From Aureococcus anophagefferens (lineage: Eukaryota > Sar > Pelagophyceae > Pelagomonadales > Pelagomonadaceae): DNA of 64,000 nt. The translations under genes and the position numbers were made by a program. Of the stretch, positions 24,737-46,812 are shown in pieces. The notes under the pieces were generated by a model. The model had not been told where the DNA came from. It saw only the letters and a program-made list of their open reading frames with translations, and ran no database searches. How positions within the stretch are numbered: the first letter of the stretch is position 1; the number at the start of each line of letters is the position of its first letter. The stretch is taken from positions 790,432-854,431 of the forward strand of contig NW_008705566.1 in the NCBI RefSeq assembly GCF_000186865.1. Direction: 5' to 3'.

Positions 24737-25969
24737 ATGTCCCGCGGCGACCGCGACGCCGTCGTCGCCGCCGTCGCGCACATGGCGTTCGGTTCTTCGT
24801 TCTGGCACGGGAGCCACACGCGCCTCGGCAACGTCGCGGACAACGGGCTGATCCAGGTCATCGCGTACGCGGACTACCAGGTCATGGTGCGCCACCTCGT
24901 CGGCGGCGTTTACCGGCGTCCCGCGGCGAGTTTCCAGGGATTCGGGGCGGGGAAACGACGAAATAATCGCCGCGCTCCGCAGGCGGCAACGCGACGCGGG
25001 ACCGCGTCCTGCTGAGCCTCTCGTCGTCGCGCGACCGGCCGTCGGCCGCCGACGCCGCCCGGGGCCTCACGGACCTCTTCCTCACGCGGCCCGCCGACGA
25101 GTGGAAGGACTACATCGCGACGATCGACGTGCCCGACTACTTCACGACCTTCGCGGGCATCGTCCTCGAGCTGCTCACGCTCGTGGCGCCGAACTCGCCG
25201 CACCTCGTCGACGAGGTCGTCCAGATCGGCGCGCGGGCCTTCAACCTCTCGGACGCCGTCGTGGCCTTCATGACGGACGAGCTCCTGCCGGCGCAGCGCG
25301 CCGCCGTCGCCGAGCTGCCGTCGCCGCTTTCGGCCCTGGAGCGCGCGGGCCTCGCGTGCAAGTTCGTCGGCACGATGCTCAAGCTGGGCTACGCATTCCT
25401 CTGGCAGGAGTACTTCTTCCCCTGGTCCCGCGTCTACCTGTGTGCAAATCAACCACTGGTTTGGGACGTCCGGACCAAACTTTGAAATTCTCTAGCTCGG
25501 CCAAATCGAAGTCGATTCGGCTGATTTTTGGACGAATCGATTGCTCTCCTCGAGTTCGCGAGGCACAGCGGATGTGCTCGAGTCAAAACACTCGAATACG
25601 CTCACATTGAAGTCGGTTTGAAGATTTGATTTGCACACAGGCATCTACGGCGTCGCGACGAACGACCTCGGCGCGGCGCTCATGCCGATGGTGAACAAGG
25701 TCGCGAACCTCCTCACGGGCTTCAAACACGCGGACGCGGACCAGCAGCGGTGCGAGCGCGTCTACGCCGCGGACGACCGCTGCCGCAAGCTCGACGTCGC
25801 GCCCCACGCCAAGTGGCACGAGTCCTCGGCCAACGGGCTGCTGGACCTCGCGCTCCTCGCGGACGACGTCCACAAGCTCACGTCGACGAAGGCGCGCGCG
25901 GCGAGCCCGCTCGGCCGCTTCGCCGCGCCGTTCGCCGACGGCTGGGCCGCGCTCTTCCTGGCCGCTTAG
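24737..25969 (+). CDS. Unknown lumenal/secreted-type protein, three exons, one intron is an introner element
   Basis: Exons: 24737-24902, 24983-25429 and 25641-25969, giving 313 aa from the first in-frame ATG. Coding-like sequence extends upstream to about 24653 (CVLVYEPCNTVSNAAYYRT) without an ATG, so the true 5' end is elsewhere. Intron 1 (80 nt) fits GC-AG. Intron 2 (211 nt) is an introner, also GC-AG, with exon join CGC|ATC TAC. Visible features are VAHMAFGSSFWHGSHTRLG, NVADNGLIQVIAYADY and Cys pairs near the C-terminus (QRCERVYAADDRCRK). I do not recognise the family. A GT donor at 25442 would also keep frame and add four residues. Confidence 0.6.
25438..25640 (+). mobile_element. Introner element, family A copy 1 (203 bp)
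   Basis: The ends are a perfect 15-bp inverted repeat (CTGTGTGCAAATCAA). The flanks carry an 8-bp target duplication with one mismatch: GCGTCTAC at 25430-25437 and GCATCTAC at 25641-25648. The element supplies the 3' splice site (CACACAG) and the left duplication supplies a GC donor, giving a 211-nt phase-1 intron. The core shares CGGCTGATTTTTGGACGA with the other three copies in the window. Confidence 0.9.
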
Positions 25970-26205
25970 GGGGAGCGCTGAGGGAGCGCGCGCGTCTTTG
26001 GTCAGTGCAACTTGCAATCAACTCGAGCCGTGGTGAAGCCAATCCGCCCCACTGGCATCTTCCTGGAGCTTGCCCGCGTCGTCCGGTGCACGAGGATCGC
26101 TGGTATTTCGCGAGTGTCTCGTTGCTCCGAGACTCTCGCACAAGCACACGCAAGAACCGAGCACTGCGGTTCAACGCCCCCGAGCAACAGGAGTGCCGGA
26201 AGGAG

Positions 26206-27603
26206 ATGGCCGCCATCGCCCAGCACTACGACGAGGACCGCCCGCGCGCGGGCATCTCCGCGACCGAGGCCACGACGTGGCGCGCCACGGGCGCCTACAC
26301 CATGGGCGCCCAGCTCGGCAGCGGCGGCTTCGGGAGCGTCTTCGTCGGCTGGAGCGACCTCGGCGAGCGCGTCGCGCTCAAGGCGGCGGACGCGCCGGAC
26401 GCGCTGCGGCGCCTGGACCACGAGGCGCGGCTCCTCGCGCGCGTCGCGGGCCACGCGAACGTCGTCGCGCTCGTCGGCCGCTTCGACCGGGGCCTCGCGC
26501 TCGAGTTCTGCGGCGTCGAGCTCTTCGAGTACTTTTTCCACAGCGGCGGCTTCGAGGAGGCGGCGGCGGCGTCCTACGCGGGCCAGCTCTTCTCGGGCGT
26601 CGCCCACTGCCACGGCCGCGGCGTCTTCCACCGCGACGTCAAGCCCGAGAACCTCCTGCTCTCGGAGCACCTCCAGCTGAAGATCGTCGACTTCGGGCTC
26701 GGCGCGGTCGACGACGGGCGGCCCCTGACGCACCCCTGCGGCACGGCGGGCTACATGGCGCCGGAGATCCTGGGCGCCTGCGAGCGCGGCGCCGCGGCGT
26801 GCTACGACGGCGCGCCCGCGGACTGCTGGTCCTGCGCCGTCGTCGCGTTCCTGCTCTGCAAGGGCGCGCCGCCGCTGACGGCCGCGTCGAGCCGGGACCC
26901 GTTCTTCGCGGCGCTCGCGGGCAACCGCCGCGACGCCTTCTGGGCCGGCCACGCGCCCTTCGCGCCGACGCGGCGCGCGCGGCGCTTCCTCGACGGCGCG
27001 CTCGTCGTCTCGCCGCGGAAGCGGCCCGCGGCGGCGGCCGCGCTCCGCGACGCCTGGATCCTCGAGGAGAGCCTGCCGCCGGACGAGCTCCGGGCCGCGA
27101 TGCGCAAGCGCGCCGACGCCGTGACCGCGGCGACGCGCCGCGTCTCCTCCGCGGCCGACGACGACGCGCCGCCGCTCTTCCGCGGCGCGTCCGACGACTC
27201 GGAGGCGCGCGAGGTGTCGCTGACGAGCGACGAGTTCCTCGACGACGACGCCCGCGGCGACGTCTACCGGAGCCTGGACGTGCCCGAGGACGCGCCGCGG
27301 CGCAGCCTGGCGGCCGTGCGCGCGCCGCGGGCGCTCGTCGGCGCGCTCCTGCCGGCCGCCGCCGCGGCGCTCGGCGCGCTCGGCGCGACGGTCGACGCCG
27401 AGGACGCGACGGGCCTGACGGCGACGGTCGACGGCGCGCGCCTGCGCGCCGCCGCGACCGTCGCGGGCCGGGACGCGGTCCTCGACTTCGGCCGCGTCGC
27501 GGGCTGCACGGTCGCGTACCACCGCCTCGTCTTCGAGCGGCTGCTCCCCGCGGTCCGCGCGGCGCTCGCCGCGCCGCGCGACTCGCCGCCGGGCCCGCCC
27601 TAA
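26206..27603 (+). CDS. Ser/Thr protein kinase, CAMKL/SnRK-like with C-terminal KA1-like domain
   Basis: This 465-aa protein has a full kinase domain at residues about 30-290: Gly loop LGSGGFGSV, VALK (catalytic Lys), HRDVKPENLLL, KIVDFGLGA (DFG), and GTAGYMAPE. The last about 95 residues (ALVGALLPAAAAALGALGA to FHRLVFERLL-like YHRLVFERLLPAVRA) resemble a KA1 or CIPK-type regulatory fold that contacts membranes or the kinase. A linker with acidic Ser/Asp clusters sits between. Start ATG 26206 (MAAIAQHYDED); longer frames upstream have no homology. Its stop codon is only 2 nt from that of the convergent gene at 27606. Confidence 0.85.
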   Translation: MAAIAQHYDEDRPRAGISATEATTWRATGAYTMGAQLGSGGFGSVFVGWSDLGERVALKAADAPDALRRLDHEARLLARVAGHANVVALVGRFDRGLALEFCGVELFEYFFHSGGFEEAAAASYAGQLFSGVAHCHGRGVFHRDVKPENLLLSEHLQLKIVDFGLGAVDDGRPLTHPCGTAGYMAPEILGACERGAAACYDGAPADCWSCAVVAFLLCKGAPPLTAASSRDPFFAALAGNRRDAFWAGHAPFAPTRRARRFLDGALVVSPRKRPAAAAALRDAWILEESLPPDELRAAMRKRADAVTAATRRVSSAADDDAPPLFRGASDDSEAREVSLTSDEFLDDDARGDVYRSLDVPEDAPRRSLAAVRAPRALVGALLPAAAAALGALGATVDAEDATGLTATVDGARLRAAATVAGRDAVLDFGRVAGCTVAYHRLVFERLLPAVRAALAAPRDSPPGPP

Positions 27604-27605
27604 AC

Positions 27606-29587
27606 TTAGTTCTCCCAGGGTATCTGGAGCGGGTTCTCGACGTTGGCGACGGCGACGTGGGCCGGCGGGTGGTACCCGTCGTCGGCGTCGTCGGCGTCGA
27701 CGGGCCCGCAGGCGCCGCGCGCGCCGAGCAGGCGGACGCCGTGGGAGTCGTCGCGCTTGAGGCGCCGGAAGCTCGGGTCGACCTTGCTGAGCGTCTTGTG
27801 GAGCCGGAGCGGCAACACGAGCGGCGGCATGTTCGGCGGCAGCGCGAAGCCCGCCGCGGGCGCGGCCGCCGCGGGCCGGTCGTCGCGGGCCGCCGCGCGG
27901 TGGGCGTCGACCTGGGTCACGGGGAAGGGCGGCGGCTCCGACGTGCGGCCGTGGCGCGGCCGCGTCGTGGACCGGCGCGTCGGCGGCGTGCCCGGCGGGC
28001 GCGAGCCGACGCGCGCGCCGAAGCCCTCCGTCGTCTTCGGCCGCGTCGCGTAGGGCCGGGGCCCCGTCTGGTAGGACGCGTAGGTCGCGTCGCCCGCGAG
28101 CGAGCTCACGAGGGACCCGCCGGGCGCGAAGAGGCCGCCGCCCTCCGACGAGCCGCCGTCGAAGGTGCCCGACTCGTAGGAGCCCTCGAAGAGGCCCGCG
28201 GGCGACGTCGCGGGCCGCGGCGCCGACTCGTCCGGGAAGTAGGGGTTCTCCTCGAGGGGCACGCCCACGCGCTTCACGCGCCGCGGGTCGTGCAGCCGCG
28301 CCAGGTACGCGTTCGTGACCCAGGTGTAGGCCGCGTCGCCGCAGATCTTGACGCGCTCCCCGCGGACCGCGCGCGCCGAGTCCGCGTAGTTCGCCTCGGC
28401 GGCCGTCGCGTACGTGTGCTCGACGCCGCCGGCCAGGTTCGACGACCCGTCGAAGCGGTCCTCGTCGTCGGCGCGGTCGAGCGTCGCCGCCTTGCGCTCG
28501 AAGATGCCGTGGTCGATGACTTTGGCATTCGCGGACGCGCGGTCGTGCGACGCGGACCAGGAGAACTGGTCGTAGCGACTCGCGCGGTCCAAACCCTTGG
28601 GCCCCCGCCTTTCGCGCTCTAAAGCCTCCTCGCGCACCCAGCGCGCCCACTCGACGAAGATTGTGCGGTAGACGACGTGGACGGCGTCGACGGCGTCCAG
28701 GTCCAGGTCCGCGTGGACGTGGACGTCGCGGTGGAGCTCGTGGAGCCTGGGCAGGAAAAGAGAGATTCAACGTCGCTTCAACGTGAGTGTTCCGCGCGCG
28801 CGCGTTCCGGAAAAAGCATCCAAGCTTCGAGACCGATCCAAGAGATGATCGCTCGTCCAAAAATCAGCCAAAACGAGTGGAAAACGGCCGAGATAGGAGC
28901 CTTTGAAGTTGGGAATTTCCCACTCTTTTCCCGCCCGGCGCGGAGCATCCGCGTCTCGACCTCCTCGTTCGTCTTCTTGCGCGCCTCGTAGAAGGCCGTC
29001 CACCAGTCCCACATGAGCGCGAGGACCTGGAGGCGGCTCAGGCCCAGCTGCTTCTTGGTCTGGATCACGCCCCCGCGGCCGATGGTGCCCTCGAAGAGCG
29101 CCGCCGCGTCGTCCATGACCTGCATCGCGTTCCACGGGCAGATGGGCCCGCCGCCCGCGGGCTTGCCCATGAAGAGGGACGCGCGCATGGGCGCGGCGCC
29201 CACCATGGACCCGCGGGGGTTGTAGTGGCGCTCGCCGGGCGCGTACTCCGCGGGCTTGGGGTGGATGTGCTCGCCGAGCTTCGCGCGCTTCTCCTCCTCC
29301 GCGAGCTTCGTCGCCTCGCCGACGTAGCCGAAGACGAGGCGGTCGCTCCGCGTCGCGGGCCGGCTGATGAGGCCCGTCTTCGGGTCGATCATCGTCGCGC
29401 GCTTGAAGCGGCCCGGGGCCGCCTGCTGGATCGACAGGGGCGTCTTCGACGACCCGCGCCGCGCCGACCCGTCGACGGCGCTCTTCCGCCGCGCGACGCT
29501 CTTCCGCCGGCCCTCGAGCATCGTCGGCCGCCGCACCGTGCGCCGCGGCGCCGCCGGCGCCTTGACCGACGCGCGCCGCGCCTCCAT
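27606..29587 (-). CDS. Unknown protein, two exons separated by an introner element
   Basis: Exon 1 is 29587-28947 and exon 2 is 28746-27606, giving 593 aa. The 200-nt intron uses a GC donor from the left target duplication; the join completes an ATG codon (AT|G). Exon 1 starts MEARRASVKAPAAPRR and is basic (RRKSVARRKS), followed by a well-ordered region (QLGLSRLQVLALMWDWWTAF). Exon 2 begins LHELHRDVHVHADLDL and is later Pro/Ser/Gly-rich, with SRYDQFSWS and VVYRTIFVEWARWV. I do not recognise the family. The exon join is supported by matching frame on both sides. Confidence 0.72.
28747..28938 (-). mobile_element. Introner element, family B copy 1 (192 bp)
   Basis: On the minus strand the element runs from CCGGGCGGGAAAAGAG to CTCTTTTCCTGCCCAG, forming imperfect inverted ends. 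The 8-bp target duplication has one mismatch: GCTCCGCG (28946-28939) and GCTCCACG (28746-28739). Splicing from the GC of the left duplication to the terminal CAG removes exactly 200 nt in phase 2. The body contains CGGCTGATTTTTGGACGA-type core (here TGGCTGATTTTTGGACGA) and ACTCACGTTGAAG. Confidence 0.9.
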
Positions 29588-29689
29588 GCGACCTTCGGCC
29601 TCGAAGGCGGTTTCGTTCGCAGAGCAACGCGAGGGCTCTGTCGACCTGGGCTGGCGGTGCCTTTTTATTCGTATTGCCCAACCATTACG

Positions 29690-31594
29690 ATGGTGGGGCT
29701 GCTCGACGCCATGGACGCCGCGATCGAGGAGACGGTGGAGCAGATCCGCATCGAGCAGTCGTCGCCGCCGAAACCGCCGCCGGCCGCGTCGCCGCCCGAG
29801 GCCGCGCCGCCCCAGCCACCGGCGGCGCAGCCGCCGCAGCCGCAGCAGCCGCCGGCCGCCGCCCCGCCGCCGCCGCCGCAGCCCGCCGCCGCCGAGGTCG
29901 CCGCGCCCGGCGCCCGCGTGCAGGGGTCCATGCTCGGGGGCGACGACTCCGACGACGACTCCGACGACGGGAGCGACTCGGAGGAGGAGGCGGTCGAGTT
30001 CGACGGCGGGGCGCCGCCGGCCGCGACGTGGCGCAAGGTCGAGCGCCGCGCGGCGAGCGACGACGAGGACGACGAGCGGCCGGGGAAGCTCCGGGCCTTC
30101 GGCGGCGGCGCGCCGAAGAAGGACGACGTCTTCGGCCTCGAGTACAAGCCCTACGAGGTCTTCGGCGACACGCAGCCGGCCAACTTCGAGGGCGAGAAGG
30201 AGCTGGAGAAGGCGCTGGAGACGTCGGCCTACGCCGTCGGCGCGGCGCAGCCCGTGCTCACGGCGGCGGGCGACGACGACGACGACGAGTTCGGCGGCGA
30301 CTGGGACGGCGGCGACGACGCGGCCGCGCGCGCGGAGGTCGAGGCCGCGCGCGCCGCGTTCCTCCGGGAGCGCGACCTCGCGGACGCGAAGGCCCTCGAG
30401 GACATGCGCCGGACCGCCGAGCGCCTGTCGCCCCAGAAGGACGACGACGACGACGACGAGGAAAGCTACGGGCTGGCGGGCATGAAGGCGTCGCTGAGCA
30501 AGACGACGGCGGCCTACGCGCCCGAGCCCGCCACGAAGGCCGGCGCGAGCATCAAGGGCGCCCTCGCCATCGAGACGCTCAACGAGGAGGACGAGGACGA
30601 CGACGACATGCCGACCATCGACGGCGTCGACGACGCGGCCCCGTCGCCCGCGCGCGCGCCGGCGAAGGAGGCGGACGTCGCGGAGTGGTCCGGCTTCGAG
30701 AGCCACGCGCTGACGACCGGGGCGCCCGCCGTTTCCGAGGCGCCCCCGGCGAGCCGCGCGCCCATGTCCTACGACGAGTGCCTGGCCTACTTCCGCGCGC
30801 TCGACATGTCGCAGGACCTCGAGTCCATCGTGCCCGTCGAATTCCCGAAGCGGTCCGCGCTCTCGTCGCTCGTGTCGTCGAAGCCGAAGCTCACCTTCGA
30901 GAACGCCGCGACCGAGCGCGACTTCGCGTTCCTCGTGGCCAAGCAGGCCTACGACCCGGCCGTCGCCGAGCACTGGCGCCTGATCTCCACCATCTTCAAG
31001 GGGTTCATGCCGGCGTCGAACAAGCGGCCGTGCGTCGCGATCGGCGGCCACTGGGAGCTCGTCGGCTTCCAGGGCGCGGACCCGCGCACGGACCTGAACC
31101 GGAGCATGTGCTGCCTCGCGCTGCTCCAGCTCCTCCACCTCCTCGAGAAGTCGCCGAAATTGGCGCACCGCGCGTACCGCGCGTCCGTCGCGGACGACAA
31201 GGACTGGCCCCTCGCCTGCACGTCCATCGCCTTCACGAAGGCGTCGCTCCAGGCGCTGCGGTCCGGCAAGCTCTACAAGCGCTGCAACGCCCTCAAGGCC
31301 GTGCTCCCGGCGCTCCACGAGCACCACGCGGCCCAGTTCGACGAGCTCCTCGCGCGCGTCAACTCCGGCGAGGACCGCTTCGTCGCGCTCAACGGCATGC
31401 GCCTCGGCAAGAAGTCCAAGGCCGCGGAGAAGGCGGCCAAGGTCAAGAAGCAGCCCTTCGTGTCCAAGGGCGCCAAGGCCGCCGCCGCGCACGCGCGCGA
31501 GGACGGCGCCTTCGCGTCCATCGCGGACGCGCCCGACGACGTGCAATTCGGCGCCGTCGCGGGCAAGAAGGTCGCCAAGTACGCCTCGGCCTAG
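29690..31594 (+). CDS. ELMO-domain protein with long disordered N-terminus
   Basis: This 634-aa protein carries an ELMO/CED-12 domain at about residues 360-540 (ERDFAFLVAKQAYDP, FKGFMP, HWELVGFQGADPRTDLNRSM, LLQLLHLL, WPLACTSIAFTKASLQAL). ELMO-domain proteins act with small GTPases, either as part of Dock GEFs or as Arl-type GAPs; the DPxTDxN-like phrase fits the ELMOD GAP group. Residues 20-340 are Pro/Gln-rich then strongly acidic with Asp/Glu runs, and likely disordered. A Lys-rich tail follows the domain. Start ATG 29690. It converges with the ATP-grasp gene, stops 14 nt apart. Confidence 0.85.
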   Translation: MVGLLDAMDAAIEETVEQIRIEQSSPPKPPPAASPPEAAPPQPPAAQPPQPQQPPAAAPPPPPQPAAAEVAAPGARVQGSMLGGDDSDDDSDDGSDSEEEAVEFDGGAPPAATWRKVERRAASDDEDDERPGKLRAFGGGAPKKDDVFGLEYKPYEVFGDTQPANFEGEKELEKALETSAYAVGAAQPVLTAAGDDDDDEFGGDWDGGDDAAARAEVEAARAAFLRERDLADAKALEDMRRTAERLSPQKDDDDDDEESYGLAGMKASLSKTTAAYAPEPATKAGASIKGALAIETLNEEDEDDDDMPTIDGVDDAAPSPARAPAKEADVAEWSGFESHALTTGAPAVSEAPPASRAPMSYDECLAYFRALDMSQDLESIVPVEFPKRSALSSLVSSKPKLTFENAATERDFAFLVAKQAYDPAVAEHWRLISTIFKGFMPASNKRPCVAIGGHWELVGFQGADPRTDLNRSMCCLALLQLLHLLEKSPKLAHRAYRASVADDKDWPLACTSIAFTKASLQALRSGKLYKRCNALKAVLPALHEHHAAQFDELLARVNSGEDRFVALNGMRLGKKSKAAEKAAKVKKQPFVSKGAKAAAAHAREDGAFASIADAPDDVQFGAVAGKKVAKYASA

Positions 31595-31608
31595 GGGTGC
31601 GTATTATA

Positions 31609-33948
31609 TTACGAGTCCACGCGGAAGAGCTCGTACTGGAGGTCCTGGATCGCCGCGTAGTCCGCGGCGACGGCGGCCTCCGGCCCCGCGAGGAGCGCCC
31701 AGCCCGAGTCCGTCTTGATGTCCACGGTCTTCACCATGGCGCCGCCGGGCTCGTCGACGTAGAGCTCGTGGTCGACGAGCGTCGGGAGGCTCCGCAGCCG
31801 CGCCAGCGCGTCGCCGTCGACCGCCGCGAGCGGCCCCTCGACGGCCGACACGAGGTGCGCGAGCACGCCGGCCCGCTCCAGGGTCGGGTCCGCGGCGATG
31901 GCGTCCCACTCGTCGGCGCTCGGCAGGCAGGCCGCCGCCGCCGCGGCGATGGCGTCGGGGCCGGCGACGCAGGCGGCGACGAGGGGCCGCACGTTCGCGT
32001 TGTGGAACCGCGCGTTCACCTCGACGAGCGTCGCCGCGCCGTCGTCGCCGACGATCAGCTCCGAGTGCGCGGGGCCGTTGGCGTGGCCCAGGGCGTCGAG
32101 GCAGGCGCGGAGCGTCTCCAGCACGGCCCCGGCGCCCGCGGCGTCCGCGAGCCACGTGCCGCGGTACACGAAGGCGCCGCCGTTCGCGGGCCGCTTGTCG
32201 TAGCGCCAGAGCGCCGTGACCTTGTGCTCGCCGTCGCGCGACACGCTGTCGACGGCGTACTCGACGCCCGCGAGGAACGCCTGGGCGAGGACGACGTCGT
32301 TGAAGCCGCCGCCGTAGCGCGTCGTCGCGCGCAGCGCGTCGAACGCCTCCCGGCACTCCGCCGCGGTCTCGCACTTGAAGACGCCGTCGCTGCCGACGCC
32401 GCGACAGGGCTTGACGACGATGGTGTTGTGTGTTTTTTGGAACGCGACGACGTCCTCGGCGGTGTCGCAGAGCGCCTGCGCGCAGTGCGGCAGCCCCGCG
32501 TCGCGGAGTTTTTCGTGGAGGAGCCACTTGTGCCGCCGGTCGACGCCGTCGCCGTTGGCGAAGGCCGCGTCGAGCGCGCGGCCGAGGCGCTCCGCCGTCG
32601 CGATGCCCGCGTCGGATTCCGAGAAGCACGCGAGGAGCGGCGGCGCGTCCGCGGCCTCGAGCCAGGGCGCCTCGCGCGACGCGGCCGGCGCGCGGAGCGG
32701 CGGCGGCGGTTGCCCGCCGTCGCAGAGGCCCCCGCCGACGTAGTCGCTGAGCACCGTGGCGACGGCGACACCCCGGTCCAGGAGCTCCCGGGCGAGCGCG
32801 AGGCCGAGGTAGTCGCAGAGCGGGTCGACGACGACGGCCGCGCCGACGGCGTCCGCGTCCGGCGCCGCGAAGGCCGCGACGGCGCCGTTGTCCTCCGCGC
32901 GCCCGCGCTCGAGCGCGCGCTCCCGCGCGCGCACGGCCGTTCGCGTCGGCGCCTTCGCCGCGGCCGCGACGCCGAGCGCCGCGAGGAGCCGCGCCGCGAG
33001 CGACGGCGGCCGCCGCGCGGTCCGCCGCGCCGCGGACCGCGTCGTCGGCCCCTCGCGTCTCCCGTCGACGCCGTCGCAGAAGCGCGCGAGCCCGAGGCCC
33101 TGGGAGCCCCAGGCGACGGCGAGCCACGCGTGGAGCAGGCCGTTGACCGTGCCGAGCCCGAGGCCCGACCAGACGGCGAAGGGGTAGGCGAAGACGAGGG
33201 GCACGTTGAGCACGAGGCCCACGGAAGCGACGGCGACGCCCGGTCGCGGCCGCGCCAAGATCGCGAGGATGAGCGCGGCCGTCGCCGGCGACTGCGTCAC
33301 GCCGACGGCGAAGATGTCGCCCGCGGGCCGCGTGCACGAGAAGGCCCCGAGCGCCGTGAGGAGCCAGAGCGCGAGGCCCCAGGCGTCGGCCGCGGCCGGT
33401 GACAGCCGCGCGACGCGCGCCAAGTCCCGGAGCGGGCCCGCGGGTGGCACAAATCTCAAACCCTCGGCGATGGCGAAGAGGTCCGCGCCGCTCGACGCGA
33501 CGCAGCCCACGACGGCCGTCCAGAGGAGCCGGAACGTCCACCGGTTCAGGTACGCCGCCGTACCGTCGTGCGCGTGGTGCGCGAGGCCGCCGAGGAGGCA
33601 CTGGACCGCGTACTTGAACATGAGCCGCCGCAGGCGCAGGCGCGTCGCGCGCGACGGCGCGCCGGGCGGGACGTTTGTTGTTGCGCGGACGCCGAGGTAC
33701 GCGCACCAGGCCGCGAGGACGTAGTCGGTGCCGTACGTGAGCGGCGTGCCGTCGAAGAGCGCGCCGTCGGCGTAGGCGAAGCGCGCGGCGACGTAGGTGC
33801 GCCGGCCCCAGTACTCGGCCCACGAGACGGTGAGCAGCCAGGTGAGCAGCAGCGTCGCCGGCAGCGCGACGGCGAGGGTCGCGAAGGCGCCGAGGTCGAT
33901 GAACGCGTCGTCTGGCGTCTTGAGCGCGCGCTCGCCGCCGCGGCCCAT
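31609..33948 (-). CDS. Membrane-domain / ATP-grasp ligase fusion protein
   Basis: This 779-aa protein has two parts. Residues about 20-290 contain roughly seven hydrophobic helices (for example TLAVALPATLLLTWLLTV, CLLGGLAHHAHDG, LLWTAVVGCVASSGADLFA). Residues about 360-770 form an ATP-grasp enzyme: IVVKPCRGVGSDGVFKC (ATP-binding Lys and Gly loop), VVLAQAFLAGVEYAVDSVS, HSELIVGDDGAATLVEVNAR (Mg-binding Glu/Asn). It resembles carboxylate-amine ligases such as L-amino-acid ligases, which make dipeptides through an acyl phosphate. Substrates are unknown. The membrane domain might position product formation at a membrane or help export. Start ATG 33948 (MGRGGERALK). Confidence 0.78.
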   Translation of the reverse strand: MGRGGERALKTPDDAFIDLGAFATLAVALPATLLLTWLLTVSWAEYWGRRTYVAARFAYADGALFDGTPLTYGTDYVLAAWCAYLGVRATTNVPPGAPSRATRLRLRRLMFKYAVQCLLGGLAHHAHDGTAAYLNRWTFRLLWTAVVGCVASSGADLFAIAEGLRFVPPAGPLRDLARVARLSPAAADAWGLALWLLTALGAFSCTRPAGDIFAVGVTQSPATAALILAILARPRPGVAVASVGLVLNVPLVFAYPFAVWSGLGLGTVNGLLHAWLAVAWGSQGLGLARFCDGVDGRREGPTTRSAARRTARRPPSLAARLLAALGVAAAAKAPTRTAVRARERALERGRAEDNGAVAAFAAPDADAVGAAVVVDPLCDYLGLALARELLDRGVAVATVLSDYVGGGLCDGGQPPPPLRAPAASREAPWLEAADAPPLLACFSESDAGIATAERLGRALDAAFANGDGVDRRHKWLLHEKLRDAGLPHCAQALCDTAEDVVAFQKTHNTIVVKPCRGVGSDGVFKCETAAECREAFDALRATTRYGGGFNDVVLAQAFLAGVEYAVDSVSRDGEHKVTALWRYDKRPANGGAFVYRGTWLADAAGAGAVLETLRACLDALGHANGPAHSELIVGDDGAATLVEVNARFHNANVRPLVAACVAGPDAIAAAAAACLPSADEWDAIAADPTLERAGVLAHLVSAVEGPLAAVDGDALARLRSLPTLVDHELYVDEPGGAMVKTVDIKTDSGWALLAGPEAAVAADYAAIQDLQYELFRVDS

Positions 33949-34210
33949 CGTGAGACGCGCTGTCGCGCTGCGAGAGGACTCGTTGGAACTCGTTGGCGGT
34001 TCGGGCTGTGGTGCTGTCGCGCAACAAGAGCTAGAACAATGTCATGCGCACGACGAGGCGGCCATAGCAAGGTCGATCGAGCCGGCAAGGCCGTCCATCC
34101 ACAGCTCGCCGAACACGAGCTCATCCGTCCTCGACTCGAGCCGCTCGAGCAGACTTCTCGGGAAGCACGCCCCGCACTACTCGCTCCTCGTGGCCGACGC
34201 CGTCGCCGAG

Positions 34211-34552: not shown

Positions 34553-34596
34553 AGAGGTGTGCATTCTTAGACTCGCCGCGGGCGCGTCCGTCGGCG

Positions 34597-37710: not shown

Positions 37711-38107
37711 AAGTGCACACACGCACCACCTGTGCAGACCCGCGCTTTTCCACCTACCCCAAAAAGCCGCACGCAACTAGATTAAGAGACCAAGCCTCTT
37801 GTCGCAGATTACAGTCCCAGATGACCTGGGCTAGGTTGATTCAGCTTCTTATATACTATCACGGGCTGCCTAGGCTACTTAATTATCGGACAAAAGATTT
37901 TCAGCTCGCCGGCGGAACATTGTATTGCTCGATTTAGAGCATTATATTGCTCGATTTAGAGCATTATGCACCGGCGTCGGGGTTTGGTGTCGATGTGGGC
38001 CATCACGTAGGCGTTCACGTACTACAGTAAGGTGACTCTCGCAGGCGTTCTCGCTGGCCGTGAAGCAAGTGAAGCAGGCCGCGCTGCAGCGCTGAGCAGA
38101 CCGAGGC
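37711..38107. other. Low-GC intergenic region with a duplicated 22-bp motif
   Basis: No gene supported. Low GC continues from the preceding gene. At about 37919-37962 a 22-bp sequence containing TATTGCTCGATTTAGAGC occurs twice in direct tandem. Confidence 0.5.
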
Positions 38108-40677
38108 ATGACAGGACGTATGCGGCGGCCTGCCTGCTCGCACAGGATGGTTCCCATGCTCTTGATGCTCGCACTGTGCGCGCGATCCATGCGGCCGACG
38201 CTGATTGCGACGCCACGGAGAAGCGCGACACCGCCATCACCGGCGCCCGAGGCCGCGCCGCCGCCGACCCCAAGGAAGACGCGGCGCGACTTCGGCGCCG
38301 CGTCCGCGGCCTGCGCCGTCGGGCTCGCCGCGCAGGCCGCGGTCGCCGTCGACGAGATGAAGTACGTCGCCGTCGCGGGCGACGTCGCGAGCAAGCCCGC
38401 GCTCGCGTTCGACGCCGTCGAATCGAAATACGGCCTGCGCTTCGTCGAGTACCTCGCGCGGCTGCTGCTCAACTACGACGGCGCGAGCGCCGCGTGGTGG
38501 GCCGCGCGGCGCGCGAACGCCGCCGGCGAGAAGACCCTCTCTCTCCAGGAGGCGAAGCGCTTCGAGTACTACGCGTCGTTCGTGTCGTCCGTCGAGCTGA
38601 GCCTCGCGCGGAACCACCTCGACGCCGCGGGCACGGAGGCGCTCTTCGCGAACCTGGACGAGCGCGTCCTGCCCCAGACCATCGCGGCGAAGCGCCAGCT
38701 GGCGCTGCTCGGCGCGCTGTCGTCGACGCCGCTGCCGGCGACGAAAACCTTTGTGGAGCGCGGCGCGAACGGCACGGTCCTGTCCGCGGCTTTGGCGGAC
38801 CGCGGCGGCGGCTACGCGGCGGGGTCCGTCGGCGCGCGCGTCGTCGCGGCGGGCCCCCGCGCGGCCGACGCGCAGGCCGCGCGGCTGCGCGCGACGACGC
38901 GGCGCACGGGCCGCGTGATCCGCGTCGCCGTCGTGAGCGGCGGCGGCGGCTACGACGCCAACAACCCGCCCATGGTCCTCGTCGACGGCCCCTGCGAGCG
39001 GCGCGCTATCGCGCGCGCCGTCGTCGGCGCCAAGGGCGCCGTCGCGGAGATCGTCCTCGAGGACGGCGGCGCGGGCTACTTCGGCGACGCGGCCGTCGTC
39101 GTCACGCCCCCGCAGGCGCCGGGCGCCGACCGCGCCCGCGCCCGGGTCGCCTTCGACTACGAGGTCGACGCGCTCAGGATCGACGCCGGCGGCAGCGGCT
39201 ACGCGGAGGCCGGGTCGCTGGCCGTCGCGTTCGACCCAGGGCAGGACAAGAGAGCGAAATTCCCAACTTCAAAGGCTCCTCTCTCGGCCGTTTTCCACTC
39301 GTTTCGGCTGATTTTTGGACGAGCGATCATCTCTCGGAACGGTCTCGACGCGTGGATGCTATTTCCGGAACGCGCGCGCGCGGAACACTCACATTGAAGC
39401 GACGTTGAATCACCCTTTTCCTGCCCAGGTTCGACCCGCCGTACTACCCGCCCAAGTACGGCGCGCGGACCGCGGCCGCGGCGGTCTCGGTCGGCCGGGA
39501 CCCGGCGCTGCTGGCCATCCCCATCGGCGACGCCGAGCGCCGCTTCCGCGGGTCGAGCGACCGGCTCACGAAGTTGTTGCCGAGCGCGTACCTGCCCGCG
39601 TTCGACGCGGGCCGCGGCCGCTACGTCGTCCGGGAGCTCGCCAACTTCTCCCGCTTCGGGGGCGAGGAGGACAGCGTCTTCGGACCGCGGTCCCTGGCCT
39701 TCGCGCGCATCGAGGAGGTCACGCCGGCGCAGTACGCGCTGCTCGGCGCGTGCGGCGCCGTGTGCACGGCCGCGGCGCACGTCGTCCTCACGCCCCTCGA
39801 GGTCGTCAAGACGCGCATCCAGGTCGACGGCGACGAAAACGGCGCGGGGCCCGCGGCGCTCGCGGCGCGCATCGTCGACGAGGAGGGCGTCGGCGGCCTC
39901 TTCGCGGGCGCGGCGCCCATCGCGGCGGGCTACCTCGTCAACGGCTTCCTCGGCTTCGGGCTGACGGAGCTCTTCAAGCGCGGCGTCGGCACGCGCCTCG
40001 ACGCCGTCGGGCCCTGGGCGGCGACGGTCGTCGGCGCGCTCGGCGCCGCGGTGCTCGCGACGACGTCCGTGACGCCGTTCGAGGCCGCCAAGGTCCGCAT
40101 GATGGTGCCCGAGGACCGGTCGGCGCCCGCGTCGCTCCTCGACGTCTGGCGCGACCTCGTCGACGAGCGCGGCGGCGTCTTCGAGGGCCTGTTCGGGCGG
40201 TCGCTCTCCGCGCTCGTCGCCAAGGACCTCGTCTTCGCGGCGTTCAAGTTCGCGGTCTTCGACCAGCTGCGGTCCGCGCTCTACGCGGCGGCGCCGCGCG
40301 CCGCGGACTCGCCGCTGGAGAGCCTCGCCGTGTCCCTCGTCGCGGGGGCCGTCGCGGGCGCCGTGGGCGCCGTCGCGTCGCAGCCCCTCGACACGACGTT
40401 CGCGCGCATCGAGACGGCCGACGGCGAGGACGCGTCCGTGCTCGGCACGCTCGCGCTGATCGCCGACGAGGGCGGGCCCCGGGGCCTCTACGCGGGCGTG
40501 AGTACGCGCGCGCTCTTCGCCGCGCTGCTCCTCGCCATCGAGTTCGCCATCTTCGAGGCGCTCCGGGACGCGTTCCACGTGAGCCGCGACGACTTCGCCT
40601 ACGCGCTCGACGCGCTCGGCGCGGCGTCGGCGTCCGGCGGGCCGCCGCCGGCGCTCATCCCGCCGCCGGGGCGCTAG
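38108..40677 (+). CDS. Plastid-type mitochondrial-carrier-family protein with long N-terminal domain; introner-split
   Basis: Exons 38108-39228 and 39429-40677 give 789 aa. The C-terminal part (about 500-770) is a carrier-family transporter with three repeats: TPLEVVKTRIQVDG, TPFEAAKVRMMVP and QPLDTTFARIET (PxD/E-xx-K/R signatures). The N-terminus has a hydrophobic leader and a twin-arginine-like KTRRDFGAASAACAVGLAAQ, suggesting plastid import. Between them is a domain with four GGxGY motifs (DRGGGYAA, SGGGGYDAN, DGGAGYFG, AGGSGYAE). Carriers of this kind move phosphate, nucleotides or SAM; substrate unknown. The intron is an introner; the join GC|G TTC restores an uninterrupted frame. Confidence 0.8.
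39237..39428 (+). mobile_element. Introner element, family B copy 2 (192 bp)
   Basis: The 8-bp target duplication is perfect: GTTCGACC at 39229-39236 and at 39429-39436 (a ninth base also matches). Ends are CAGGGCAGGACAAGAG and CTTTTCCTGCCCAG. The left duplication supplies a GT donor and the element supplies the CAG acceptor, making a 200-nt phase-2 intron. The same body as copy B1 is present, including CGGCTGATTTTTGGACGA and ACTCACATTGAAG. Confidence 0.93.
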
Positions 40678-40690
40678 CGACCTAGGTGCC

Positions 40691-41108
40691 TTAGGAGCTC
40701 TTCGGCTTGCCCGACTTGTCCTTCTTCTTCCCGGCCTTCTTCTTCTTCCCGGGCACCTCGGCTCGCCTCCGGAGGATGCGGAAGAGGAGCGCGACGACGC
40801 CGACGAACGCGACGCCGCCCGCGACGAGCGACGCGCGGCGCACGAGGAACGGCTCCGGCCCGAGCTCGGGCACCTCGCCGGGCTCGAGGTCCTGCGAGCG
40901 AGCGACGCGTCCGCGCGCGCGCGCGCGGCGGTCCGCGGCGCCGGCGCCGCGCCTGCGAGAACCCACTCAGCGCGTTCTGGATGTCCTGCTTGCACTCGAT
41001 GGAGGGCTCCGCGTCTCGGTCGAGCGCCGTCTCGACCTCGCGGCGGCAGGACTGGCTCAGCATGGCCATGACGCTGTCGATGGTTTCCCTGCGAGCGATA
41101 ACCGTCAT
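40691..41108 (-). CDS. Small single-pass membrane protein, two exons
   Basis: Exon 1 (41108-40953) and exon 2 (40891-40691) give 118 aa, joined by a 61-nt GC-AG intron in phase 0 (CAG|GAC). The N-terminal half is soluble (MTVIARRETIDSVMAMLSQ, CRREVETALDRDAEPSIECK) and may form helices with two Cys. Exon 2 has DLEPGEVPELGPEPFLVRR, a membrane helix (ASLVAGGVAFVGVVALLFRI) and a Lys-rich tail (KKKKAGKKKDKSGK). Orientation with a cytosolic basic tail suggests an organelle or ER anchor. No family recognised. It converges with the carrier gene, stops 13 nt apart. Confidence 0.62.
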
Positions 41109-41272
41109 CGATGCGGCGCGGCGCGAGGACGCAGCGATGCGCACCGGTCCACGAGGCCCTTCTCGAGCGGCATGGCGGCGGCGGCGACGCTGGCGGCCAG
41201 GCTCAAGTGCTTGGGTTTGCGGCAGGCCGGCTCGCCGACGACAAGACCGCCGCACCGCCGCCGCCGTCGACC

Positions 41273-42838
41273 ATGAGCTCGACGCTCCTCGAGAAGGCGC
41301 GCGGCGCCCTCGAGGAGATTGAGGCCCTCGAGTCCCTGGCCGTGGAGACGATGAGCGGCAAGGTGAGCGGCGCCAAGGCGTCCATGGAGCGCGACGGCGT
41401 GCTGAGCAACGTCGTCGACGGCATGGCCAAGTCCGCCGAGGCTTTGACGCTGCTCTACGCGGACCGCGACGGCGCCTACCGCGAGGAAGTGGGCCGCATG
41501 CGCGGCGTCGGCGTGTTCACGAATTTCTACGGCGCGCTCAAGGAGACGCGCGAGTACTACGCGCGGTTCGCGCGGAACGCGGCCTTCGGCGCGGCGGCGG
41601 GGGGCGCGCGGAGCGCCGTCGAGGCGGCGAAGACCGTCGAGACGCAGTTCAGCGGCGAGGAGATGTGGGGCAAGTACCTCGACCTCGGCCGGCTCCACCG
41701 CCAGTTCTGCAACGTGCCCGGCGCGCCCGGCGGCATCGCCCTGGAGTATGTCGCGTACCTGCGCATGCTCGCGTCCGTGCCCTTCGGGGAACACCTGGCC
41801 ATCGCCGAGGGCGGCGACGCGGCGGTGTCCGCGAAGCGGCGGTCGCACGGCGGCTACGGCCGCTACGTGCGGGAAATGGACGATTACCTCGCGGACTTCT
41901 GGAAGCGGACGCAGCCCCTCGTGGACCTCGAGCCGCTGTTGAAGCCGGCCCTCGACGCCTTCCACGTCGCCTGGGACGCGAGCCGGACCGACGCGCTCGA
42001 GGGCGACGAGCTCGATTTGGGGCCCTACGGCGCCGCGGCGGAGCTCGAGGCGCTGGGCCTCGACCGGCTCAAGCGCGCGCTGGCGGCGCGGGGCCTCAAG
42101 GTCGGCGGCGACGCCAAGGCGCGCGCGGCGCGCCTCTTCGCCGTCAAGGGCCTCGCGCCGGAGGACGTGGACCCGAAGCTCCGGCAGGGCCGGAAGCGCG
42201 CGCGCGACGGCGACGGCGCCGCGGGCCCGGACCGGACGTCGAAGAAGTACGCCGTGGCGCTGGGCGAGGCCCGCGTGCGCTGCCTGCTGTCGCAGCACCT
42301 GGAGACGGTCCTCGACGCGACGCTGCGGCGCGCGGAGCGCAAGCTGACGCGGACGACGGACGAGATCCGCCAGGAGCTCCGCGACGAGGAGTTCGGCGTC
42401 GAGACGGCGGCCGTCGAGGAGGAGGAGGAGGAGGACGAGGAGCAGGCCATCGACGCGCCCATCTACAACCCGAAGAACCTGCCCCTGGGCTGGGACGGCC
42501 GGCCCATCCCCTACTGGCTCTACAAGCTCCACGGCCTCGACGTGTCCTACGTCTGCGAGATCTGCGGCAACCAGACCTACTGGGGAAGACGCGCCTTCGA
42601 CCAGCACTTCAACGAGTGGCGCCACTCCCACGGCATGCGCTGCCTCCGCATCCCCAACACGAAGCACTTCCACGGCGTCGTCAAGATGGACGACGCCGTC
42701 GCGCTCTGGGAGCAGCTCCAGGAGAAGCAGGACGCGGAGGCCTTCAAGCCCGAGCGCGACGAGGAGTACGAGGACTCCGACGGCAACGTCCTCAACCGCG
42801 CGACCTACGAGGACCTCGCGCGGCAGGGCCTCCTCTAG
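41273..42838 (+). CDS. SF3A3: Splicing factor 3A subunit 3 (SF3a60 / Prp9)
   Basis: This 521-aa protein matches SF3A3 along its whole length. Visible parts are the N-terminal helix region (LLEKARGALEEIEALE, LYADRDGAYREEV), the central ELEALGLDRLKRALAARGLK (SAP-like), YNPKNLPLGWDGRPIPYWLYKLHGLDVSY, and a C2H2-type zinc finger CEICGNQTYWGRRAFDQHF, NEWRHSHGMRCL at about 425-455. It ends EEYEDSDGNVLNRATYEDL. SF3A3 is part of the U2 snRNP and needed for branch-point recognition. Start ATG 41273; the upstream frame is non-conserved. Confidence 0.97.
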   Translation: MSSTLLEKARGALEEIEALESLAVETMSGKVSGAKASMERDGVLSNVVDGMAKSAEALTLLYADRDGAYREEVGRMRGVGVFTNFYGALKETREYYARFARNAAFGAAAGGARSAVEAAKTVETQFSGEEMWGKYLDLGRLHRQFCNVPGAPGGIALEYVAYLRMLASVPFGEHLAIAEGGDAAVSAKRRSHGGYGRYVREMDDYLADFWKRTQPLVDLEPLLKPALDAFHVAWDASRTDALEGDELDLGPYGAAAELEALGLDRLKRALAARGLKVGGDAKARAARLFAVKGLAPEDVDPKLRQGRKRARDGDGAAGPDRTSKKYAVALGEARVRCLLSQHLETVLDATLRRAERKLTRTTDEIRQELRDEEFGVETAAVEEEEEEDEEQAIDAPIYNPKNLPLGWDGRPIPYWLYKLHGLDVSYVCEICGNQTYWGRRAFDQHFNEWRHSHGMRCLRIPNTKHFHGVVKMDDAVALWEQLQEKQDAEAFKPERDEEYEDSDGNVLNRATYEDLARQGLL

Positions 42839-42995
42839 GGCGCGTCGGCTAAGCTTTCGAAAGTGCCCCAAAACTTTTGAAGCTGCCCTTCAAGCTCGGC
42901 CGGGAAGTAGCCCTCTCGATGGACGACGAGGAGCTCTGCGGAAGCAGCCCTGCGACGGACGGACGCTGATCGCTTCGGGCGACGCCGGCAGCCCG

Positions 42996-45900
42996 ATGGA
43001 CGCGCACATGGTCGTCGCGGGCGGCAAGGGGATCGTCGTGCGCAGCGAGCGCGACATGGCGAGCGACAAGGTCTGCGAGCTCGCGGCGGCGACGCGCGTC
43101 GTCGTGAAGCGGGTGGCCACGATCACGACGGCGGCGGGCGCCGTCGAGCGGGCGGAGATCCGCTGGAACGGCGGCGGCGCGGGGTGGTGCAGCCTGCGGC
43201 TCCTGGACGCGGCGCCGGCCGCGCCCGTCGGGAGCTTCAAACAGTTCCTCGCGCGGTCGCGCGCCGCGCCGGCGCCGCCGGAGGAGGAGCCGCCGCCGCG
43301 CGCCGCGGCGGGGGCGCCCACGGAGCCGGAACCGACGCGCGCCGCGGCGGAGGCGCCGTCCTCGGACGACGACTCCGACGGCGACGAGATCACCTGGACC
43401 GTGTCTCGGCCGCGGCCCGACGCGGAGCCCGAGCCGGCGCCGCCCGCCGAGGAGCCCGCGGCCGAGGAGCCCGCGGAGCCGCCGGCCGTCGCGGAGCCGG
43501 CGGCCGTCGCGGAGCCGGCGGCCGTCGCGGAGCCGGCGGCCGTCGCGGAGCCGCCGGCCGTCGCGGAGCCTCCGGCCGTCGCGGAGCCGCCGGCCGCGCG
43601 GCCGCTGGACCCGAGCCGCGCGGCCTTCGCGCCGGCGGCCTCCCGCGTCGACGACGTCGTGTACCGCGGCGTCGAGGACGCGGCGACCGTCGCCGCGGCG
43701 CGGCCGCCGCCGCGGAAGCGGCTCACGCCGCTGAGCAGCGCGGAGCACATCGCCGCCATGTTCCGCCCCTCGCCGGCGCCCGCGGCCGCGGCCGCGGCGG
43801 CGGACGCGGCCGCGGCGGCGGACGCGCCCGCGGCCCCCGCGGCCGGCGGCGGCGCCGCGGCGCTGCGGCGGGCCGCGGAGCGGCGGCGGCGGCGCCTCGC
43901 GGGCGCGCTCGACGTCGTCCCCGCGCGGGAGCCGGGCGCGGCGGCGGCGGCGGCGGCGGGTGCCGTCGACGACGCGGAGAAGTTCCCCGGCGAGGTCGCC
44001 GTGGGCCTGCGCTGCGACGGCGACGACAAGGCGCACAGCTTCCTGCTCCCCGCGAAGCGGACCGTCGGCGAGCTGCTCCTGGAGCTGCTCCGGCGGCCGC
44101 CGCCGTCGACGCTGAGCTTCCTCGAGGCCGTGCGGACGACGGGCCGCTGCTGCTACCTCGCCGCGGCGCCACCGGGCGGCGGCGCGCCCGCGCCGCTCAA
44201 CTCGCGCGCGGCGCTCGGCGAGGCGGCGGCGGCCCACGGCGCGCTCGCCAGGGACGCGCGGGGCGTGTCGTCCGTCGCGCTCGTGCTCCTGTCGCGGACC
44301 GTCGCGGACACGCGCGTCGACGACGGCGACGACGACGGCCTCCCCGCGGACGACGCGCCCGCGGACGCGCCGCGGCCCAAGCGCGAGAAGCAGAAGAAGC
44401 GCCGCCAGCGCCGGGCCGCGGACCCGACCATGCTCGGCTTCCAGGGCGCGCGGCCGCGGCGGCCGCCGCGCCGCGACGTCGACGACGACGCCGCCGAGGG
44501 CCCGGAGCCCGGCCCGAGCCGCCCGGCGCCGGACGCGCGCGCGGGCCCGGGCGCGCGCCCGGGCAACGCCTGGGCCGCCTACAACCCGGCGGTCATGGAG
44601 CCCGCCTACTACGACATCTACGACGACGTCGACTTCACGGAGTACGTCGTCTACGACGGCGCACCGTTCTACGGCCACGACCCGGCGGCGCCGAGCTGGC
44701 TCGCGCCCTACGACCCGAACGCCTACGACCCGCACGCCTCCTACGACCCGAACGCCTCCTACGACCCGAACGCCTCCTACGACCCGAACGCCTACGACCC
44801 GGCGCCGCCGTGGGCCGCGCCCTACGGCCCGGCCGCGCTCGTGCCATCCGCCGTCGTCTTCAACGACCTCGCGGCGGTCGAGCCCGCGGCCGCGCCCGAG
44901 GCGGTCGAGCCGGCGGCCGCGCCCGAAGCGGCCGCGCCGGCGGCCGCGCCCGAAGCGGCCGCGCCGGCGGCCGCGCCCGAAGCGGCCGCGCCGGCGGCGG
45001 TCGAGCTCGCGGATCCCGCGGCGGCGGCGGCGGCGGCGGCGGTCGCGGCGGACGCGGCGAAGGCGATCGAGGACCGGCGCGCCCTCGACGCGCTCCGGCG
45101 CCTGGCGTCCGGCGAGCCGGAGCCGGAGGTGGAGGCAAAGGCGGCGCCCGAGCCGGAACCGGAGGAGGCGGCCGACGCGCCCGCTCCCCAGGGAGAGGAG
45201 ACCGGCGACGGCGCCGTCGAGGAGGCCGAGCGGCGGCTCGCGGCCTTTCGCGAGGCGCTGCCCAAGGACGCGACGGCCGAAATGACGCCGGACGCGAAGG
45301 AGACGGCCGAGCCTCCGAAAGGCCTCCGGGCGGACGCGGCCGCGTGGGCCGCGCCGGCGGATCCGGCGCCGTCGCCGGCGCCGCCCTCGGCCGCCGAGCC
45401 CGCGGCCGGCCCCGAGCCCGCGACCCCCGCGGCGACGCCCGAGTTCCCGACGCTCGAGGGCGCCCGGGCCGCGGCGGCGCCGGCGACGTGGGTGCCCGGC
45501 GCCGGGGCCCCGGCGTCCGCGCCGACGATGACGCCGACGAACTTCCCCGCGCTGTCCGGGGCGCCGGCGCCCCGCGCCGTGCCGCGCGGCTGGATGCGCG
45601 GCAGCGCGGCGCCGCCCGCGTCGGCGGCGGCGGCCGCGGCGCCGCGGCCGCCGCGGCTCCGGTCCGCGGCCGCGGCCTTCGTGCCGTCCGCGGCCGCCGC
45701 GGCCTTCGTCCCCGGCGGCGCCGCGGCCTTCGTCCCCGGCGGCGCCGCGCCCGGGGCGGTGGCGGAGCCCCCGGCGCCCGCGGCGGCCGACGCGGCGGAG
45801 GCCGCGGCCGCGACGGCGTCGGCGGCGTACGTCGCGGCGATCGCGTCCGCCGCGGCCGTGCGCGCGGCCTTCTGCATGGCCGTCGAGGCGGCGACGGCGA

Positions 45901-46812
45901 GCGGCCTCGCGCCCTGGTGCGTGCCCCTCGCCGACCCCGGCCGGCCCGCGCCGGAGCCCGGCGTCTCGACGGCCGCCGCGGCGACGTACTCCGCGCTCCT
46001 CGCGGCCGCGGGCGCGTCGCCGGCGCCGGAGAAGGAGGTGAGCTTTTGCGGCCCGCCGCCGCCGCCCGCGGCCTTGGCGGCCGCGGGCGACCGCGGCCGG
46101 GGCGACGGCGACTGGAGCGTGCAGCGGTCGCCAGTGTGGAATTCAACCACTGGTTTGGGTGGTCCTGACCGAACTTCAGAATTCTCTAGCTCGATCAAAT
46201 CGAAGTCGATTCGGCTGATTTTTGGACGAATCGATTGCTTTCGTCGAGTTCTCGAAGCACGGCCGAAGAGCTTGCGTCGAAGCTGTCGAATATGCGCACA
46301 TTGAAGTCGGGTTGAAGATTTGAATTCCACGCAGGCGGTCGCGGCGGCGGTCGCGGACGCCCGCGCAGGACGGCGCGCCGAAGCCCCGCAAGGACCGGTC
46401 CGCGAGCGCCAAGGCGCGCCCCGCCGAGGAGAAGCCGAAGCCGACGAAGAAGGCCGCCAAGGCCGCGGAGCGCGAGGCCCGGAGCCGGCGCCGGTCCGTC
46501 GCGAAGCCCGAGGCCGCGGCGCCGTCGAACTCGTTCGCGCCGCTCCGCGCGCGGTCGACGTCGCGCGCGCCACCGCGCGACGAGCCCCCGGCGCCGCCGC
46601 GCGACGACGACCGGGAGCGGCGGCGCGAGGCGCGGCGCGAGGCCCGCGCGCGCCGCGAGCTCGAGAAGCTCGCCGCGGCGGCCGCGGGCGGGTCCGCGCC
46701 GCGGCGGTCGCGGTCCATGGCCCGGCGCCGGGAGAAGGCCGACGACGCGCCGGAGCCGTCCTGGGCCGAGATGGAGATCGCCATCAGCATGGCGTGCCTC
46801 GACGACTCGTAA
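42996..46812 (+). CDS. Large Ala/Pro-rich protein with N-terminal SH3b-like region; introner-split
   Basis: Exons 42996-46123 and 46335-46812 give 1201 aa. Residues 1-75 (GKGIVVRSERDMASDKV, RWNGGGAGWCSLRLLD) look like a bacterial-SH3-type fold. Low-complexity repeats follow: seven to eight EPxAVA units (about 160-205), four YDPNA units (about 570-600) and several APEAAAPA units. Two FPxL-type motifs (EFPTLEG, NFPALSG) occur around 815-860. Exon 2 is charged (RRREARREARARRELEKL) and ends WAEMEIAISMACLDDS. Function unknown; FPxL motifs hint at a translation- or RNA-linked scaffold, which is speculative. The exon 2 frame is fixed by the precise introner removal. Confidence 0.68.
46132..46334 (+). 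mobile_element. Introner element, family A copy 2 (203 bp)
   Basis: The 8-bp target duplication GCGGTCGC is perfect (46124-46131 and 46335-46342). Inverted ends are CAGTGTGGAATTCAA on the left and, on the minus strand at the right, CTGCGTGGAATTCAA (13 of 15 matches). Splicing from the GC of the left duplication to the terminal CAG removes 211 nt in phase 2 (CA|G), exactly as for copy A1. A GT inside the duplication (46127) would also keep the frame. Confidence 0.92.

Follow-up and report, generated by a model that had tools for sequence, protein, structure and literature searches.

The bulk origin of new spliceosomal introns is an open question, approached here through the window, the whole stretch of 64,000 nucleotides of Aureococcus anophagefferens DNA analysed here. 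Within it lie four short elements of two families, A and B. Are such elements removed as introns, and what determines the strand on which they could be spliced? The existence of introners in Aureococcus is already published; Huff, Zilberman and Roy, in Nature in 2016, reportedly described those of A. anophagefferens as short non-autonomous DNA transposons for which the target site duplication (TSD) supplies one splice site. Both families in the window would be non-autonomous DNA transposons (MITE-type introners) inserting with an 8-bp TSD, and the intron would be made up of the element and one copy of the TSD. Its 5' splice site would be the GY with which the TSD starts on the gene strand and its 3' splice site the terminal CAG of the inverted repeat, and exact excision would thereby restore the frame. 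This MITE-type reading as a whole, with a donor from the TSD, an acceptor from the tip and polarity from the second base of the tip, is very probably correct.

Family A is represented by A1 and A4 (203 bp each), family B by B2 and B3 (192 bp each). Introner A1 (CTGTGTGC...GCACACAG) occupies positions 25438..25640 of the plus strand, with its core 18-mer at 25518..25535 and its TTGAAG box, ACATTGAAG, at 25604..25612. The left TSD GCGTCTAC (25430..25437) begins with the GC proposed as 5' splice site, and the right TSD GCATCTAC (25641..25648) would form the first 8 bp of the downstream exon. Introner B2 (CCGGGCGG...CCTGCCCAG, 28747..28938) is read on the minus strand between its donor-side TSD GCTCCGCG (28939..28946) and its acceptor-side TSD GCTCCACG (28739..28746); its core, at 28853..28870, has one mismatch, and its box, ACGTTGAAG, is at 28776..28784. 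Introner B3, which has the form called F below (CAG...CAG), lies on the plus strand at 39237..39428, with the core at 39305..39322, the box ACATTGAAG at 39391..39399 and the TSD GTTCGACC on the left (39229..39236, offering a GT donor) and on the right (39429..39436). Introner A4 (CAGTGTGG...CCACGCAG, 46132..46334, plus strand), whose gene strand has no confident call, carries the core at 46212..46229, the box ACATTGAAG at 46298..46306 and the TSD GCGGTCGC at 46124..46131, with a GC donor, and at 46335..46342.

The core CGGCTGATTTTTGGACGA matches the window four times, three times exactly and once with one mismatch, against 0.01 matches expected by chance. The box is exact in three elements and has one mismatch in B2. 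Checked in all four elements, the sharing of core and box between the two families holds, as does insertion beside G(C/T) with 8-bp TSDs; these start with GC in A1, B2 and A4 and with GT in B3, and their two copies are perfect in B3 and A4 and have one mismatch each in A1 and B2. A terminal CAG is found in A1, B2, B3 and A4 alike. The preliminary description had all elements ending in CAG, which is right in the sense of the gene and wrong in the orientation of the core. It had also taken A and B to be related, and their interiors share more than core and box: the right halves align (z 4.4 against shuffles), and the alignment of the left halves is not significant (z 1.7).

The core is by no means confined to these four copies. 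Exact matches number 1,855 across the 49.05 Mb and 86 contigs of the genome, 934 of them forward and 921 reverse; the reversed core, as a control, has no exact match across the same 49.05-Mb genome. A sample of 165 copies, with at most three mismatches in the core, was taken from 128 loci and the window. The loci had been chosen through the core or through similarity to a query element, and the sample is therefore unfit for judging how well the core is conserved. Boundaries could be assigned to 144 of the 165 copies, and the 21 without clear boundaries were excluded from the counts. The 8-bp TSDs of the bounded copies are perfect in 119 cases, with one mismatch in 21 and two mismatches in 4, and 127 of the 144 have a confident coding context. 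One locus appears twice (L042 is the same as L041); it is included in the frame and TSD-class counts given below (121/124 and its companion set) and was dropped from counts based on 125 copies. The family classifier placed a few A-like copies (L099, L111) in B, and one CTG...CAG row stays under B in the 125-copy set; the polarity counts for B rest on tip pairing, the tree and the F/R comparison sets, not on the classifier lists. Many near-identical copies, TSDs and terminal inverted repeats (TIRs) are thus present, as the proposal of DNA-transposon-type introners in Aureococcus had it, and recombinant end combinations are seen in both families, in agreement with the suggestion that the ends can be exchanged.

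A longer, 12-bp TSD that would include the tips was considered and rejected: of 141 copies, only 15 and 12 have outer dinucleotides that agree with the tip at the other end. By eye, the copies without boundaries include decayed ones, one with a 9-bp TSD (L040) and those of L027 and L055. On the minus strand of L027 an internal introner unit of about 90 bp, core included, is repeated three times in tandem, and on the minus strand of L055 the flanks match as inverted rather than direct repeats (GTCATGTG / CACATGAC).

A codon model with a GC3 of 0.97, for which these same loci were the training set, assigned gene strand and frame to each flank. The first such model described the antisense strand (GC1 0.97); it was flipped and retrained, and the flipped strand agrees with domain hits. 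One TSD plus element measures 211 bp in family A and 200 bp in family B, neither a multiple of three. Among the 124 copies with strong flanks, excision of this unit leaves both sides on the same strand and in the same frame 121 times, while random excisions in the window gave such agreement in 43 of 708 (200-bp) and 28 of 691 (211-bp) cases. On the gene strand the TSD starts with GY in 122 of 125 confident copies (A 54/57, B 68/68), and the acceptor tip is CAG in 123 of the 125. At the level of sequence, this upholds a donor taken from the TSD and an acceptor CAG taken from the element. The opposite tip drifts, in family A to CCG, CGG or CAG (12 of 57) and in family B to CGG or CCG (12 of 68). 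Conservation of the acceptor tip against drift of the other is the pattern that selection for splicing should produce. The TSDs themselves predict the gene strand: 44 have GY only and a core in sense, 34 have RC only and a core in antisense, and none is discordant (Fisher 7e-23), with 43 uninformative TSDs that have both and 2 that have neither. Insertion phases (54/31/40) track the supply of GY in coding sequence (p 0.77). The exceptions to GY are L060 (GA), L044 and L091, and the last two are in our view probably misplaced boundaries. On the minus strand of L060, its predicted gene strand, GAACCCGC stands at the donor side, possibly marking a GA-AG intron.

Six predicted spliced products, picked by eye from 20, were examined for domains. 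In L029, an antisense copy of form R (see below), the predicted product is a continuous phosphoserine transaminase (SerC; NCBIfam, E 8.7e-188, match 2-368) with the junction at residue 171; the same product has no Pfam match at 1e-5. In L047, a sense copy of family A, the junction falls inside a SET domain, and in L002 it falls near the end of a stretch of LtrA. The products of L068, L013 and L038 have a domain on one side of the junction and support the strand only. Antisense copies among the six are L029, L068 and L002. For B2 the sole homologue of the predicted spliced piece begins downstream of the junction, so it is uninformative there. Frame restoration together with the continuous SerC and SET domains suggests that copies of A and B are removed from mRNA as introns.

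The elements occur in genes in both orientations, and the two families differ in how they do so. In family A, 27 of the 57 confident copies have the core in sense and 30 in antisense. Its tips, CTG...CAG, present an acceptor on each strand, and an acceptor is possible at either end because the repeat is inverted. Family B would have an acceptor on one strand only and exists in two forms, F (CAG...CAG) and R (CTG...CTG in core orientation). In core orientation the B copies listed as sense read C[A/G/C]GGGC...GCCCAG, mostly with CAG, and those listed as antisense read CTGGGC...GCCCTG, once with CCG; some copies with weak flanks are included in these lists, and the A-like L111 and L099 were set aside. 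Genome-wide, the tip patterns are left CAG 733, left CTG 440, right CAG 662 and right CTG 340. Among the places listed on C1 and on C2 up to 3.05 Mb, the B tips pair as 60 CAG...CAG and 30 CTG...CTG with none mixed of 90 (58 left and 41 right ends have no listed partner and are uninformative). A tree of 73 B bodies likewise holds 52 F, 21 R and no mixed copies. F and R would then differ in the orientation of the body, the tips reading CA...AG on the gene strand in both. Since opposite bodies lie between the same gene-strand tips, polarity would be set by the second tip base and not by the core. The two B forms make up a natural experiment, in which a body of 150 bp, almost unchanged, would act as an intron whichever way it is read; a donor in the target and a pyrimidine-AG tip therefore seem to suffice.

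How one form gives rise to the other is less certain. The forms are interspersed on the tree, and the switch thus seems to have occurred more than once: parsimony requires 9 form changes (bootstrap 8-10) against 18.4 with shuffled labels, and 2 of 156 sites separate the nearest F body from the nearest R body. A rival account is independent point mutation at both tips. One base per tip separates the forms, drift of non-acceptor tips to CGG or CCG does occur, and the tree is poorly resolved, its well-supported branches forcing only 2 form changes. Against this stands the joint switching of the tips, without a mixed copy among the 90 pairs or the 73 bodies and 9 times by parsimony, when selection needs only the acceptor; independent mutation appears rather unlikely. 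That both tips switch although only one is needed suggests instead a turning of the body while the tips kept their places, or a conversion of the interior. Polarity switching would accordingly be due to inversion of the body between the repeats or to gene conversion of the interior. It is tentatively proposed, as a possibility we would not yet favour outright, that recombination or template switching inverts the body between the two repeats without moving the tips, and that the same exchange keeps the ends matched. An accepted intron could in that case invert without losing splicing. If flipping does take place, mobile copies of both polarities would keep arising, and these introns would be free of direction apart from one base.

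A sister element bears on the origin of the tips. Only two copies of it were found. In L129 (37-515) it is 479 bp long with perfect 21-bp repeats and no clear TSD; in L132 (18-519) it is 502 bp long, its repeats match at 20 of 21 positions, and it has the TSD CGCGCGAC. Both are bounded by a B-like repeat with the tips CAG...CTG, so that neither strand offers an acceptor. The ends of the two copies are 95 and 98% identical, and position 9 of the repeat differs between them at both ends in matched fashion. Beyond the repeat, L129 shares only short stretches with A and B, one of them being the last ten bases of the core. The tips would fit an ancestor with CAG...CTG, in which a change of one base at one tip produced a one-way introner and changes of both tips the two-way family A. 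The sister element suggests that an ordinary transposon needs a single base of the inverted repeat, one that creates the acceptor AG, to become an introner.

The two ends of an element also vary together. When the two repeats of an element are compared in 63 family-B copies 192 bp long, position 2 is mismatched in every one (0/63 matching, with 33% expected), and most other positions are invariant and matching. At the variable positions 9 and 11 the ends agree in 83% and 87% of copies, against about 50% expected, while positions 15 and 17, toward the inner edge, match in 35%, as by chance. In family A, positions 8 and 10-12 match in 88-98% of copies against 50-83% expected. Of the 90 B pairs, 71 have matching TIR variants, where shuffling gives a mean of 28.8 and a maximum of 45. 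In 31 disjoint pairs of nearest B copies, changes at the two variable repeat sites were confined to one end as often (15) as they were shared by both (15), so that matching is strong and not strict. TSDs, restoration of frame, strand concordance, coupling of the tips and this coupled variation of the repeats are direct results of the genome comparison.

Matching of the repeats could be maintained by pairing of the TIRs in RNA, rather than by the transposase, with the stem bringing the splice sites together. The 71 matched pairs agree with this, at least 10 TIR-TIR pairs are present in the predicted folds of 37 A and 39 B introns (samples of 40 each), and A1 is more stable than its own shuffles (z -4.9). 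Any inverted repeat folds in this way, however, and B3 gains no stability over shuffled versions of itself (z 0.15). A matched change of this kind at the two ends is also seen in the sister pair L129/L132, where the tips offer no acceptor, and sites in the B repeat changed at one end only as often as at both (15 against 15). An RNA stem is on this evidence an improbable cause.

The position of the donor can be examined at A1. Along its entire length, the protein predicted to be spliced across this element has 98% identity with AURANDRAFT_63034 of A. anophagefferens, an agreement at species or near-species level, and the annotated protein retains four residues, VYLC, at the junction (window 25430-25648). 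These residues, absent from the homologue P0005 (43% identical), imply a GT donor 4 bp inside A1 (CTGT^GTGCAA) and an addition of 12 bp. They may reflect a misannotated GC donor, or possibly a real 12-bp exon addition. GC donors tend to be avoided by gene predictors. Applied to all of family A, an internal donor (CTGT^GTG) would leave 12 bp, or four codons, in the mRNA and turn the GY of the TSD into a target preference of the transposase only. Besides VYLC in A1, an Aureococcus MAG introner with such an arrangement, carrying both splice sites and leaving 12 bp, appears in the excerpted text of Gozashti et al. 2022 (Fig. 2F, PMC9860276). TSDs ending in RC also exceed expectation (45 against 28.2 of 125, p 6e-4), so some palindromic target preference exists. 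GY is nonetheless near-universal solely at the gene-strand end (54/57 in A, 68/68 in B), while RC is found at the other end in 45 of 125; the first 20 bases of family B contain no GT, and P0005 has no extra residues. A general internal donor is therefore quite unlikely. The present elements differ from that MAG example, as excerpted, in that the GY constraint on the TSD argues for exact removal. The TSD donor would generally be used in A (GY in 54 of 57), though an internal donor may also occur.

The core, which had been proposed as the part conserved for splicing and probably the holder of a branch point, finds no support in that role. In sense copies some 110 nt separate it from the acceptor, in antisense copies it is present as the reverse complement, and with the body used in both directions it is unlikely to be a branch point. 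Conservation of the 18-mer is 0.976 in sense and 0.957 in antisense copies of A, and 0.995 and 0.988 in B, in a set of copies chosen partly by the core. Other segments of the body differ between sense and antisense by at most 0.08, the largest difference being in the left 20 bases of B, which hold the tip. When family-B copies were picked by their left end on contig C1, 33 of 58 had the exact 18-mer. The consensus branch point is yUnAy. That the core is an RNA splicing signal needed by every copy, a branch point with a T-run, is very improbable: it is common to A and B and its CTGAT followed by TTTTT resembles that consensus with a pyrimidine run, but AGs intervene over the roughly 110 nt to the acceptor, the reverse complement serves in 30 of the 57 A copies with a confident strand and in B copies of form R, conservation is similar in sense and antisense (in copies chosen partly by core), and the exact core is kept by 33 of the 58 left-end-picked B copies. 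TTGA motifs about 10-36 nt upstream of the acceptor, seen by eye in the consensus of all four acceptor ends, may be better candidates for the branch point. The core itself reads as a segment, well preserved, of a body ancestral to both families, and perhaps, as a speculation, as a site used in transposition at the DNA level. Its stretch GAUUUUUGG resembles an Sm site. An origin from an Sm site or snRNA was rejected: a relaxed Rfam search gave two weak matches far below gathering for A1 and none for B3, and at gathering cut-offs Rfam has no match in the window.

We infer a common transposase for A and B. No autonomous element with shared ends and a transposase was found with the profiles PF05699, PF10551 and PF21787. 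Two superfamilies come close. The hAT superfamily is characterized by 8-bp TSDs and CAG-type tips, and hAT-type MITEs resemble B and the sister element in the 8-bp TSD (B, L132) and in tips of the CAGGG type; family A differs, with tips CTG...CAG. The hAT dimerisation profile PF05699 (four candidates scored) gave no match in this genome and was also silent in the control genomes. The MULE profile PF10551 gave none in the genome and matches in 4 of 14 controls. The P-element superfamily has 8-bp TSDs and a palindromic G..C target, both of which are seen here, and the P-type RNase H profile PF21787 finds one relic in the genome (C25:178372). Over its 385 codons the relic (L130 1-1156, G000:C25:178000-179155) contains 7 in-frame stops, all of them TAG and none TAA or TGA, which would reflect either a TAG-only pattern of decay or a source that read TAG. 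A PDB search with it gave no match, and the 1.4 kb downstream, the one side covered, holds no introner-like repeat. At about 1155-1320 of L130 it is broken by an old stretch that contains the core in antisense; the 8-mers on either side of this stretch, GTAAGCTA and GTAAACTT, are alike at 6 of 8 positions. A transposase between CAGGGCAGSAAAAGGG repeats would name the superfamily.

The literature compared comprises excerpts of PMC9860276, PMC7789003 and PMC10228655. According to the excerpted review PMC10228655, the introners of Huff et al. 2016 inserted in both orientations, so that this part of the present results is not new. Those introners resemble the present ones in species, in being short non-autonomous DNA transposons and, reportedly, in taking one splice site from the TSD. 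The excerpts of Gozashti et al. 2022 (PMC9860276) describe families with TIRs and TSDs in which the element provides the 3' splice site and the TSD the 5' splice site (Fig. 2B), with GC and GA donors among them, and in these respects the elements are alike. Among the papers listed, titles and abstract openings name no directional forms, which is no proof that such forms are unpublished. The polarity switch, the covariation of the ends and the sister element seem to be new, the original text of Huff et al. 2016 aside.

Two other repeats are found in the window. A 59-bp unit occurs in three tandem copies at 24076-24252, the later ones 95-98% alike to the first. At 49876-52227 there is a long array of 144/54-nt repeats, rich in CACCAC, which possibly encodes a His-rich repetitive protein.
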